Below, in pieces: positions 42,717 through 46,366 of a stretch of 64,000 nt of DNA (the first letter of the stretch is position 1; the number at the start of each line of letters is the position of its first letter). The notes below the pieces were generated by a model, which made no database searches, had not been told where the DNA came from, and was given only the letters and a program-made list of their open reading frames with translations. The stretch is taken from positions 2,466,001 through 2,530,000 of the forward strand of contig NC_013960.1 in the NCBI RefSeq assembly GCF_000024725.1, in the 5' to 3' direction. The position numbers and the translations under genes were made by a program. This DNA is from Nitrosococcus halophilus Nc 4 (GTDB lineage: Bacteria; Pseudomonadota; Gammaproteobacteria; Nitrosococcales; Nitrosococcaceae).

Positions 42717-43616
42717 ATGGCGAGGATAAATTATCCTACTATTGAAGATTTTGTTGGCCGTACCCCCTTGGTAAGGTTGCAACGCCTACCAGGTAAGACC
42801 AGCAACACCCTTTTAGTGAAACTCGAAGGGAACAATCCTGCCGGCTCAGTGAAGGACCGACCGGCCTTGAGTATGATTCGGCATGCGGAACAGCGGGGGG
42901 AGATTAAGCCAGGAGATACTCTGGTGGAAGCGACCAGCGGGAACACCGGCATTGCCCTTGCCATGATTGCTGCCACCAAGAACTACCGGATGCGCTTGAT
43001 CATGCCAGAGAACATGAGTGTAGAGCGGCAGGCAGTGATGAAAGCCTTTGGGGCTGAGATTATCTTGGTGTCGCCACAGGAAGGGATGGAAGGGGCCCGG
43101 GACTTGGCTTTAGCTATGCAAGCTGAAGGGAAGGGCCGGGTGTTGGACCAATTTGCTAATCCCGACAATCCCCGTGCCCATTATGAGGGAACGGGTCCCG
43201 AGATTTGGGAAGAGACCGGCGGCACGGTCACCCACTTTGTCAGTTCCATGGGCACCACCGGCACGATTATGGGAGTCTCTCGTTATCTCAAGGCCCAAAA
43301 TCCGGCAGTCCAAATTATTGGTGTCCAACCCACGGAAGGGGCGAGCATTCCCGGGATCCGCCGTTGGCCAGAGGCCTACTTGCCTAAGATCTACGATCCC
43401 AGGGCAGTCGACCGGATTATTGATGTTTCTCAACAGGAGGCGGAAGAAACTACTCGGCGATTGGCCGCGAAGGAAGGGATTTTTGCTGGCATTTCTTCCG
43501 GGGGAGCCGTTGCAGCAGCCCTTCGTCTGGACCAAGAAGTCAGCCATAGTACGATTGTGGTAATTATTTGTGATCGGGGCGATCGTTATCTTTCTACCCC
43601 GGTGTTTCCTCACTAA
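42717..43616 (+). CDS. cysM: Cysteine synthase B
   Basis: PLP enzyme that makes cysteine from O-acetylserine and sulfide or thiosulfate. 299 residues from ATG 42717, six bases after a GGGGAG site; GTG 42711 is in frame just before. The PLP lysine is in NPAGSVKDRPALSMI, the phosphate-binding loop is TSGNTGIALAMIAA, and SSMGTTGTIMGVSRYL follows. The CysM-type loop sequence and length separate it from CysK (about 320). It lies away from the cysH-cysD-cysN cluster but completes the route. Confidence 0.93.
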   Translation: MARINYPTIEDFVGRTPLVRLQRLPGKTSNTLLVKLEGNNPAGSVKDRPALSMIRHAEQRGEIKPGDTLVEATSGNTGIALAMIAATKNYRMRLIMPENMSVERQAVMKAFGAEIILVSPQEGMEGARDLALAMQAEGKGRVLDQFANPDNPRAHYEGTGPEIWEETGGTVTHFVSSMGTTGTIMGVSRYLKAQNPAVQIIGVQPTEGASIPGIRRWPEAYLPKIYDPRAVDRIIDVSQQEAEETTRRLAAKEGIFAGISSGGAVAAALRLDQEVSHSTIVVIICDRGDRYLSTPVFPH

Positions 43617-45750
43617 GAAGAGAGGTTGGCGCTTCTTCCCATTCCCTAGTGTGCTTTTCTCCGCTAGGCTTTTGGGCTTCCTTAACACCCCTTGGCGGTG
43701 GACACTGTTGGGTCTTGGTTGGTTCTTCGCTGGGGGCGCTGTGGCGGTTGATAAACTGACCATCCCGATTGGCTATCTTGGCGAGGCTGGCTGGCGGGCA
43801 GAACAGGTTGGGGCTAATCTTCAGTTCCACGCTGCTGGCGGGCGCTCGCTCCGGCTTCATGTCAACCGTCTGTTACTTCCGCCTCCCTTGGATATTCTGC
43901 ACCAAGTGGACATCCGCTGTGGGCGTATTGAATGGACCGCTTCCCATTTTCAGTGCCAAGAGGGAGTGGCCAGTTTCATTAGTGAAAAATTCTCTGCTCG
44001 AAGTAGCCCATTTAATTTGAGTTATCATTGGGTGACTGAGACGCTTTCCTTTGAGTTCAAGGCACTGAGATTGGCCGGCGGCTCCGCAGTGATCTCTGGA
44101 CGCTTTGAGCAAGGACAATGGCAGTTATCCCTTTCTGGACAGTCTCTCAACCTAGCCCATGTACTTGATCTCTTGGCTCCATGGGGATTGCCATCTGGAG
44201 CCTGGCCCTCGGCATTCTCCTTAAGGGGAACGCTGGGATTAGAGATGAAATTAGCCGGGCAAGGCAAGTTTCTGCATAAGGTCAATCTTGGAGTCCAGTT
44301 TGATGAACTTGGTTTTTCTGATGCAAAGGCCCTCCAGGTGGGGGAGGCGGTGGCCGGCAGAGTTCAACTTAAGGGGAAAAATGCTGAAAGTGGTTGGGAG
44401 ATGACCGCTGAGATGGTGCTCAATGGCGGTGAAGCCTATTTTCATCCCTTGTATTTTGCTTTCTCGGAAACCCCCATCCATGTCGATATGGCACTAGGGC
44501 AAGGAGAGGTTGACGGACAGTGGGAAATCCCCCGATTCAGCCTGAAGCAAACCGGGGTCATGGAGGCCAAAGGGTCCCTCCAGTTGGTCCAGCAAAGAAT
44601 CACTAAAGCCCGGGTTCAGGTGACACAGGTCCCAATGCCCGCTTTGTATCAACACTGGTTGGAACCTTTTTTAGTGGGGACGGCCTTGGGGGATCTGGAA
44701 AGCGGTGGCCGCCTGGCCTTTGTTGTGGAATATCTCTTTCCTGACGGGTGGTTGCTGAAAGCCTTTTTCCACGGGGTGGATATGGTTGACCAACAGGGAC
44801 GGTTCAGTATTGGGGGCCTTGATGGGCAATTTGGCTGGAGTACTCACGCCACTCCACTGATGACAGAGCTGGATTGGCAGGAAGGTCACCTCTACGCTTT
44901 GAAACTGGGTAAGGCGCGGCTAATTGCTGAAAGCAAAAAGAATGGGTTAAGGCTGAGGCAGCCGTTAAAGTTACCCGTGCTTGATGGCTATTTGCTAATG
45001 GATGATTTTGTCCTAAAAAATCCGGGTATCCCCTTAGCCCATTGGGAGTTGGAGGGGGTTTTAAGTCCCCTCTCCATGGAGAAACTCAGCCAGGCCCTGG
45101 ATTGGCCAGTCCTCGCCGGGAAATTATCTGGAGTCATTCCCCGAGTTCGTTACCGGGAGGGGGTCATGGAAGTGGGAGGTGCTTTGATGGTGCGGCTATT
45201 TGACGGTACGATTGTGGCTCAGAATCTGCGCTTAGAAGATCCCTTGGGAGTATTGCCGCAACTTGAAGCGGATATTGATATTAATCGCCTAGACTTGGAA
45301 ACCATGACCCAAACTTTTGCCTTTGGTAAAATTGAAGGTCAGATCAGCGGTCAGATACGGGGACTTCGTCTGGCGAACTGGCAGCCAGTCCAATTCGACG
45401 CAAAATTTGCAACTCCGGAAAATGATCCCTCGCGACATCGTATCAGTCAGCAAGCGGTGGATAGCCTCTCGCGGCTAGGTGGAGGTGCCAGTGGTCTGGT
45501 TTCCCGAGGTTTTCTAAAATTTTTTAAAGATTTTTCCTATGACAAGATCGGCTTGAGTTGCCGCCTGCTTCGCCAGATTTGTAGGATGGGAGGCCTGGGG
45601 CCTGCCAATGGGGGCTATTACATTGTGCGCGGCGGCGGCCTTCCCCGCATTGATGTTATCGGTTATACCCGTCAGGTGGACTGGCCGGTGCTAGTTAAGC
45701 GGTTGAAAAGAGTGACTTCAGCAAGCGGTTCGGTCACGGAACAAAAGTGA
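43570..45750 (+). CDS. Large periplasmic/membrane protein, YdbH/AsmA-like
   Basis: A single N-terminal hydrophobic segment (WRWTLLGLGWFFAGGAVAV) is followed by some 650 residues of alternating short strands without further membrane helices, the aspect of the AsmA-like bridge proteins. C-terminal signs are IDINRLDLETMTQTFAFGKI, IEGQISGQIRGLRLANWQP and the ending PRIDVIGYTRQVDWPVLVKR, which resemble YdbH-family C-termini. The start is uncertain: the frame opens with GTG 43570 inside cysM, while GTG 43651 gives a better signal anchor; neither has a clear ribosome binding site. A DUF1318 lipoprotein follows by 7 nt, as YdbL follows YdbH in E. coli, and this supports the call. Confidence 0.65.
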   Translation: MIGAIVIFLPRCFLTKKRGWRFFPFPSVLFSARLLGFLNTPWRWTLLGLGWFFAGGAVAVDKLTIPIGYLGEAGWRAEQVGANLQFHAAGGRSLRLHVNRLLLPPPLDILHQVDIRCGRIEWTASHFQCQEGVASFISEKFSARSSPFNLSYHWVTETLSFEFKALRLAGGSAVISGRFEQGQWQLSLSGQSLNLAHVLDLLAPWGLPSGAWPSAFSLRGTLGLEMKLAGQGKFLHKVNLGVQFDELGFSDAKALQVGEAVAGRVQLKGKNAESGWEMTAEMVLNGGEAYFHPLYFAFSETPIHVDMALGQGEVDGQWEIPRFSLKQTGVMEAKGSLQLVQQRITKARVQVTQVPMPALYQHWLEPFLVGTALGDLESGGRLAFVVEYLFPDGWLLKAFFHGVDMVDQQGRFSIGGLDGQFGWSTHATPLMTELDWQEGHLYALKLGKARLIAESKKNGLRLRQPLKLPVLDGYLLMDDFVLKNPGIPLAHWELEGVLSPLSMEKLSQALDWPVLAGKLSGVIPRVRYREGVMEVGGALMVRLFDGTIVAQNLRLEDPLGVLPQLEADIDINRLDLETMTQTFAFGKIEGQISGQIRGLRLANWQPVQFDAKFATPENDPSRHRISQQAVDSLSRLGGGASGLVSRGFLKFFKDFSYDKIGLSCRLLRQICRMGGLGPANGGYYIVRGGGLPRIDVIGYTRQVDWPVLVKRLKRVTSASGSVTEQK

Positions 45751-45757
45751 GAACAGA

Positions 45758-46366
45758 ATGATTAAGCTGCTACGTTGGTGGAGTTTGGTGATGGTCGTTG
45801 GATTAGCTGCCTGCGTCACTATCAATATTTATTTTCCTGCAGCCGCGGCAGAAAAGGCGGCGGATAGGATCATCGAGGATGTGTGGGAGCAGGATGCCAC
45901 CACGCCAGCGGCACCGCCCCCCCCTGCTGAGCAAGAGAGCGCGGCACCCCCCCCACCTTCTGCTTGGAGCCGGTTACTTGATTTTTTGTTGACTCCGGCG
46001 GCGGCGGCTGAACCAAATCTGGATATTTCAAGCCCCGCCATTGAACGCCTGACCGCTTCTATGGAGCGGCGCCACCATCAGCTTAGACCTTATTTCCAAA
46101 GCGGCGCTATTGGGCTGACTCATGATGGTTTGGTGGCGATACGGGAGGCTCAAGGGATCCCCCTCAAGGACCGAACGAGGGTCAACCAATTGATTGCCGC
46201 CGAAAACAATGATCGCAATGCTCTTTATCGAGAGATTGCCCGGGCTAATGGCCATCCTGAGTGGGAAGCCCAACTTCGAGGTACTTTTGCCCGTCGTTGG
46301 ATCCAAAAGGCACCCCCGGGTTGGTGGTATCAGAATGCCCAAGGGCAATGGGTGCAAAAGCGCTAG
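45758..46366 (+). CDS. Lipoprotein with C-terminal DUF1318 (YdbL) domain
   Basis: 202 residues. The N-terminal signal ends in the lipobox LAAC with Cys19, directly followed by VTINIYFPAAAAEKAADRI, then a Pro/Ala-rich linker (about residues 45-75), then the DUF1318 domain at about 100-200: GLVAIREAQGIPLKDRTRVN, NDRNALYREIARANGHPEW and the closing KAPPGWWYQNAQGQWVQK. In E. coli the small lipoprotein YnbE and the periplasmic YdbL are separate partners of YdbH; here the lipid anchor with a YnbE-like strand and the YdbL domain are in one chain. The fusion reading is inference; the DUF1318 domain is clear. Confidence 0.8.
   Translation: MIKLLRWWSLVMVVGLAACVTINIYFPAAAAEKAADRIIEDVWEQDATTPAAPPPPAEQESAAPPPPSAWSRLLDFLLTPAAAAEPNLDISSPAIERLTASMERRHHQLRPYFQSGAIGLTHDGLVAIREAQGIPLKDRTRVNQLIAAENNDRNALYREIARANGHPEWEAQLRGTFARRWIQKAPPGWWYQNAQGQWVQKR

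Follow-up and report, generated by a model that had tools for sequence, protein, structure and literature searches.

We analysed a 64,000-nucleotide stretch of the Nitrosococcus halophilus Nc 4 genome (contig NC_013960.1, positions 2,466,001 to 2,530,000 of the forward strand; hereafter the window) and focused on a pair of adjacent genes on its plus strand. The first encodes a large YdbH-like protein and the second a lipoprotein ending in a DUF1318/YdbL domain. A listing of open reading frames on both strands placed the ydbH-like frame at 43570..45750 (GTG start, 726 residues) and the lipoprotein-YdbL fusion gene at 45758..46366 (ATG start, 202 residues), with an intergenic gap of 7 nucleotides (45751..45757). 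Both frames had been described in a sequence-only reading of this DNA, and the length of 726 residues is here corrected to an upper bound. GTG 43570 sits within the 3' end of an upstream cysM-like frame on the plus strand, which ends at 43616 (overlap 43570-43616; name from sequence), and the body conserved among relatives starts at about residue 60 of the 726-residue frame in our alignment; the true start of the ydbH-like gene is therefore probably GTG 43651 or TTG 43672.

The lipoprotein begins with the signal peptide MIKLLRWWSLVMVVGLAAC and the lipidated Cys19 (45758..45814; Cys codon 45812-45814), with the lipobox LAAC and Val at +2. The lipobox Cys was invariant in all 12 rows of alignment A1. 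It is followed by VTINIYFP (residues 20-27, 45815..45838), whose V, T, N, Y, F and P were invariant in the same rows, and by AAAAEKAADRIIEDVW (45839..45886), a helix according to the models of the relatives L188 and L171. A Pro/Ala/Glu-rich linker then leads to the hydrophobic segment AWSRLLDFLLTP with AAAA (45962..46009), a signal-peptidase-I-like motif, and to the DUF1318/YdbL domain (46064..46360). This domain matched PF07027 at residues 103-201 (E 1.5e-24, 86.7 bits, cut-off 27), so that the earlier description of a Cys19-VTINIYFP start followed by a full DUF1318/YdbL domain holds. E. coli YdbL (28oj) gave a weak direct phmmer match to the lipoprotein (E 0.0031). No NCBIfam match was found for the 202-residue protein, and no DNA similarity to E. 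coli was found.

The large protein had no Pfam or NCBIfam match at E ≤ 10, and we compared it with YdbH using family alignments. The window-type alignment (N) against the canonical YdbH set E scored 94.5% in hhalign (E 7.5e-8). When window-type, split and other-class kin were pooled (NSXM) and compared with all canonical YdbH sets (EZA), the score was 97.7% (E 1.7e-12, 230 columns). A YdbH-like frame was present upstream of the lipoprotein in 67 of the 80 loci retained from the contig scan described below. Several results weigh against this relationship. PF11739 (YdbH) found no match at E ≤ 10 in the window protein or the whole genome. The window type alone scored lower with the smaller canonical sets (47.6% for A and 17.7% for Z), and the homology spans 204-248 columns, in the C-terminal half only. 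A single E. coli YdbH sequence scored just 3-6%, so the link to YdbH rests on the family alignments. Among the controls TamB, AsmA, YhdP, YicH and YhjG, which as single sequences are weak controls, the pooled window type reached 19.4% at best (TamB); the M group reached 37.9% (AsmA, single sequence) and the window type alone at most 2.8%. On the evidence of these alignments, the large protein is a remote relative of YdbH, as the sequence-only reading had proposed; the comparison with AsmA-type families, made with single-sequence controls, gave no convincing match and tells little in either direction, as does that with the single E. coli YdbH sequence.

In the window, the region that aligns with canonical YdbH, in its C-terminal half, is 44707..45420 (hand-transferred from the relative L082, about ±10 nucleotides); it ends with WQPVQFDAKFAT, which lies opposite the canonical C-terminal strand GRPINLSVNLEE. 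Past this end come some 110 further residues, an extra C-terminal module (45421..45747, from the sequence and the relatives' consensus) that contains a Cys pair and GYYIVRGGGLPRIDVIGY...VDW; models of relatives predict strands followed by a C-terminal helix. The large protein has a Cys pair at each end (CRLLRQIC and CGRIEWTASHFQC; positions 45548-45590 and about 43905-43965). Both are also present in the relatives' consensus, as expected for periplasmic disulphides.

The fold was studied using predicted structures of relatives. In the model of L188, from a Methylophaga metagenome-assembled genome, ydbH and the lipoprotein were read through one natural stop and thereby artificially joined via the lipoprotein signal peptide. 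This model had a mean predicted local distance difference test score (pLDDT) of 89.7 and a predicted template modelling score (pTM) of 0.81, with mostly long strands across residues 3-554. These strands, predicted with high confidence, fit an elongated, repeating beta body of the large protein. The YdbL part of L188 (residues 780-873) superposed on E. coli YdbL 28oj with Z 8.6 and a root-mean-square deviation of 2.0 Å over 85 residues at 27% identity, which points to a YdbL fold in the modelled domain. The best Foldseek match of the groove part was the elongated ApoB100 (E 6.8e-5, template modelling score 0.15), and TamAB 9xdc_B stood at rank 8 (E 0.04); that YdbH does not appear near the top carries little weight. 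A family assignment of the groove part by Foldseek and VIA-align was set aside, as both returned just general elongated or barrel beta proteins and no clear family.

We next consider the N-terminus of the large protein. An alignment of 64 rows, including that of the window (three rows lack this part), placed a signal-peptide-like start at 43651..43746, ending in AVA before VDKL (A59/V60 of the 726-residue frame). Of the 56 scored rows, 51 have a (-3,-1) Ala motif where the beta body starts in the alignment, 27 of them with strict AxA. The hydrophobic stretch is shorter than that of canonical YdbH (median 18.5 vs 22.0). A second scoring rule separated the groups less well (44/56 window-type vs 18/32 canonical YdbH rows). 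The N-terminus is, judging from these rows, a probable signal peptide, and an inner-membrane anchor appears doubtful. The single N-terminal helix of the sequence-only reading is thus better described as a signal-peptide-like start, while its strand-rich body agrees with the predicted structure of the relative. If the large protein truly has no inner-membrane anchor, the picture of a bridge through both membranes would fail for a large bacterial group.

The window genome contained one DUF1318 match (PF07027), and TamB, AsmA and YhdP were present separately. DUF1318 was found in 122 of 398 sampled Pseudomonadota. By motif class, the 121 of these other than the window genome comprised 95 with a separate YnbE-like lipoprotein and YdbL, 10 with a VT[IV]N fusion, 11 with a different fusion, four with a split VTIN form and one with another lipoprotein start. 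Near relatives, from genus to order, had DUF1318 in 48 of 59 cases, and all 20 that were fetched were fused. Among 274 Gammaproteobacteria, 66 were matched by a model for the fused lipoprotein: 51 matches were near full length in one open frame, two came in two pieces and 13 covered the YdbL part only. A contig scan with two motifs, taken from this fused family itself, matched at least 594 stretches, of which 570 were confirmed and 80 kept (74 fused and six split). The fusion is widespread and not special to the window genome, and the presence of the gene pair in many genomes excludes chance. The neighbourhood is partly common to relatives as well: 42 of 68 related loci have a cysM-like C-terminal motif upstream, and 23 of 78 have, downstream, a motif of the 3'-5' exonuclease-like frame that follows 46366 in the window (name from sequence).

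In the split form, seen in Methylobacillus, Nitrosomonas and relatives, a CVTINIYFP gene with its own stop is followed by a YdbL gene with its own signal peptide (L069, L072, L073, L194, L206, L214, L219 and L229). In L194, L206, L214 and L219, the anchor and YdbL genes are in the same frame, and only one stop codon separates them. In L219 (84-2618), ydbH, the anchor lipoprotein and ydbL all lie in one frame, parted just by TGA and TAA. In L244, the short anchor gene was read and the match runs on past it. As these relatives carry the same two pieces as separate genes, they support the equivalence of the pieces to an anchor and YdbL. The seven split rows with YdbH formed one clade within the fused rows in two YdbH trees (Shimodaira-Hasegawa-like approximate likelihood ratio test values of 99 and 100). 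The approximately unbiased test did not reject one clade of all 40 fused gammaproteobacterial rows (p 0.47); the tree used here omitted 20 of the 64 rows, which were near copies or long branches, and two of the four outgroup rows. Because the outgroup is also fused and the split clade lies inside the fused rows, one fission of a fused gene is the simplest, though not a proven, account of the split forms.

Other arrangements of DUF1318 were observed in the survey. A second, unrelated-looking fusion, C..PLLEVT.VDERTALENQVLGSYAEL (C..PLLEVT.VDERTALENQ) joined to DUF1318, accounts for the 11 different fusions among the 121 genomes (L063, L079, L080, L081, L102-L106, L272 and L273). Its upstream large frame measured 960-1,336 residues from stop to stop in six loci and was cut by the contig end in two more; an AxA segment was not seen by eye in this fusion. 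In L064 (G022), the lipoprotein start CATTQPQFNSDP is joined to DUF1318, and the frame directly upstream is NAD-binding dehydrogenase-like, not ydbH-like. Genome G068 carries an additional DUF1318 copy, matched in two pieces (C60:4279-4546), and G259 has two copies (C15 and C39).

The relation of the anchor to YnbE was also assessed. PF13617 (YnbE) gave no match at E ≤ 10 in the genome. At this threshold the search is noisy (11 of 14 control genomes match, two above the cut-off), and a very divergent YnbE may therefore exist elsewhere in the genome. Neither a second ydbH nor a ynbE was detected, which agrees with the sequence-only reading, for which a separate ynbE-like gene with an intact ydbH partner would have been a contrary finding. 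Profile comparison of the anchor with YnbE yielded 2% over five columns, a comparison whose sensitivity is limited by the short sequences. The proposal that the lipoprotein merges YnbE and YdbL thus stands in part: an anchor is joined to YdbL in one frame, but homology of that anchor to YnbE was not detectable. Some canonical YnbE proteins (L155, L259, L261 and similar) start with CITVNAPEEPIVIELNVNI, with ITVN directly after the Cys as in the fused anchor. Such starts are a possible hidden link to the fused anchor that the profile comparison did not detect.

The segment between the anchor and the YdbL domain bears on whether the mature product is one chain or two. Each of the 96 fused rows has a hydrophobic segment, often similar to LLDWLIPPAHA, that finishes with a (-3,-1) Ala motif within the nine residues preceding the YdbL domain. 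The motif is strict AxA in 92 rows, and the other four have V at -3; shuffled linkers contained the (-3,-1) Ala motif in 41% and strict AxA in 14%. Mean best 9-residue hydropathy was 1.86 at the motif vs -0.96 in the rest of the linker (90 rows long enough). In 94 of 96 fused rows, the -1 Ala is at a distance of 7-10 from the conserved Pro of PAI, and the candidate signal-peptide sites of eight checked split forms lie 6-10 from that Pro. Cleavage at the motif would leave mature YdbL with almost the start that it has in the split species. Five fused rows of another class contain the motif too, four of them strict. A mere leftover of an old signal peptide was considered as the origin of the segment and is possible, but the fixed pattern argues for a present role.

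This conserved motif between the anchor and the YdbL domain suggests that the mature products may be separate, and 'merged' may fit the gene better than it fits the mature protein. We give a little under an even chance to a precursor that signal peptidase I would cut at LLDxLhPxAxA, releasing a YdbL-type protein from a short anchor lipoprotein, with the fusion at the gene level only. The excess of the motif over shuffled linkers, its distance from the conserved Pro, which matches the signal-peptide sites of the split forms, and its occurrence in fused rows of another class favour such cleavage. On the other hand, the hydrophobic stretch is short and usually has D, N or E mid-way (LLDWL), unlike a normal signal peptide, and the fixed LLDWL-like pattern could instead mean a binding helix. 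Nearly an even chance is given to the alternative that the chain remains intact, with the YdbL domain capping the attached anchor up to the encounter with the large protein, which would prevent uncontrolled self-assembly of the anchor. The near-complete single frames in 51 of the 274 Gammaproteobacteria and the 74 fused loci among the 80 fit a tethered chaperone, and so does the role of E. coli YdbL, which reportedly acts in a chaperone-like manner towards YnbE; the PDB name of 28oj agrees. The conserved cleavage-like motif speaks against a lasting tether, as do the seven YdbH-carrying loci in the tree that have none.

For E. coli, Kumar, Davis and Ruiz are said to have proposed in 2024 a model of strand augmentation by YnbE with YdbL as a chaperone-like partner. 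The sequence-only reading envisaged strand pairing of lipoprotein residues 20-27 with the C-terminus of YdbH, and VTINIYFP might likewise extend the large protein by one strand at its C-terminal edge, in the way that YnbE reportedly does for YdbH; we consider this rather unlikely. The conserved VT[IV]N[IV]YFP adjoins the lipid anchor and has an alternating hydrophobic pattern, both in keeping with a docking strand. In neither of the two AlphaFold models was VTINIYFP seen in a strand, which also counts against a ydbH-type locus. In L188, CVTINIYFP (688-696) lies outside strands with low to middling confidence (10-residue block means 37 and 79) and is followed by a helix at 697-712 with a confident core (block means 79, 95 and 79). 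The second, shorter construct, L171 (pLDDT 78.8, pTM 0.63), had no strand at 262-270 (block mean 52), where the first three residues of the motif join the signal-peptide helix, and a helix at 271-286. As the constructs are single-chain and read-through with no positive control, these are weak negatives, which weaken strand docking but do not dismiss it. The extra module ending in a helix makes the edge of the large protein unlike that of canonical YdbH, and the undetectable YnbE homology also argues against such docking. It is quite improbable that the operon serves a purpose other than lipid transport, such as envelope polymer assembly, with the likeness to YdbH being little guide to function. 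The signal-peptide-like start in place of a clear inner-membrane anchor would suit such a role, and TamB, AsmA and YhdP are other candidates for lipid transport in this genome. The direct linkage to a YdbL domain and the YdbH homology tell against it, as does the redundancy of AsmA-like proteins described in passages on E. coli (PMC8593681) and P. aeruginosa (PMC10900882).

The locus is probably a divergent ydbH-type lipid-transport operon in which the anchor and a YdbL-type domain are made as one precursor. The large protein would be an elongated, repeating beta-groove protein related to YdbH, exported to the periplasm and able, by analogy, to shield the acyl chains of phospholipids. The second gene, a single frame, would supply an outer-membrane lipoprotein anchor and a chaperone-like YdbL-type domain as one precursor, which would fix their ratio at 1:1. 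This anchor probably keeps the groove protein attached to the outer membrane. The YdbL part would either stay tethered, guarding its own anchor from self-assembly, or be freed by signal peptidase I. These steps could also be combined, in many Gammaproteobacteria: the anchor and chaperone would be co-exported, the chaperone would guard in cis and signal peptidase I would then cut, and the partner would be a soluble YdbH-derived groove at the outer membrane that has lost the inner-membrane anchor. Lipids would then be handled by this groove and not by a bridge fixed in both membranes. We regard this combination, taken as a whole, as rather unlikely.

The route that phospholipids take to the outer membrane is not settled; in E. 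coli, YdbH provides one of three redundant routes. A natural fusion of anchor and YdbL gives independent evidence of an interaction between them and offers a ready 1:1 construct for the chaperone idea. According to passages in the respective sources, the ydbH-ynbE-ydbL locus on a plasmid lets a tamB yhdP mutant grow on MacConkey agar (PMC8593681), YdbH acts together with the outer-membrane lipoprotein YnbE (PMC12977461, PMC11784454), ydbH and ynbE show strong translational coupling (PMC6728339), and GspN has been likened to YdbH (PMC12802150). In the titles and abstract openings of part of the matches to YdbL, YnbE, YdbH and DUF1318, no description of an anchor-YdbL fusion was found.

We finally compared the locus with known systems. 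TamB, YhdP, AsmA, YicH and YhjG of E. coli are AsmA-like proteins with an elongated beta-groove architecture, which the predicted body of the large protein resembles, although the single sequences tested gave no convincing profile match. PF13617 (Lipoprotein_19/YnbE) similarly provides a short lipid-anchored beta-like segment between ydbH and ydbL, but there is no sequence match, and the strand-like motif comes directly after the Cys here and about 12 residues after it in E. coli YnbE. The domain match and the fold of the relative's domain are shared with PF07027 YdbL (28oj), whereas the domain here is tied to a lipid anchor via a Pro/Glu-rich linker and the conserved hydrophobic AxA segment. 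The split form of Methylobacillus, Nitrosomonas and relatives has the same CVTINIYFP anchor and the same YdbL subtype, in two genes and with a YdbL that has its own signal peptide. The E. coli ydbH-ynbE-ydbL locus (K-12 b1381-b1383; L002) has the same order of groove protein, outer-membrane lipoprotein and YdbL with tight packing, a YdbH whose C-terminal half is homologous by family alignments, and the same YdbL fold. It differs in that here the anchor and YdbL are encoded as one chain, the anchor is not detectably YnbE, and the large protein has a signal-peptide-like start and the extra C-terminal module. The locus is a widespread variant of the YdbH system with two oddities: it may contain an internal signal peptidase I site, and its groove protein may be without an inner-membrane anchor.

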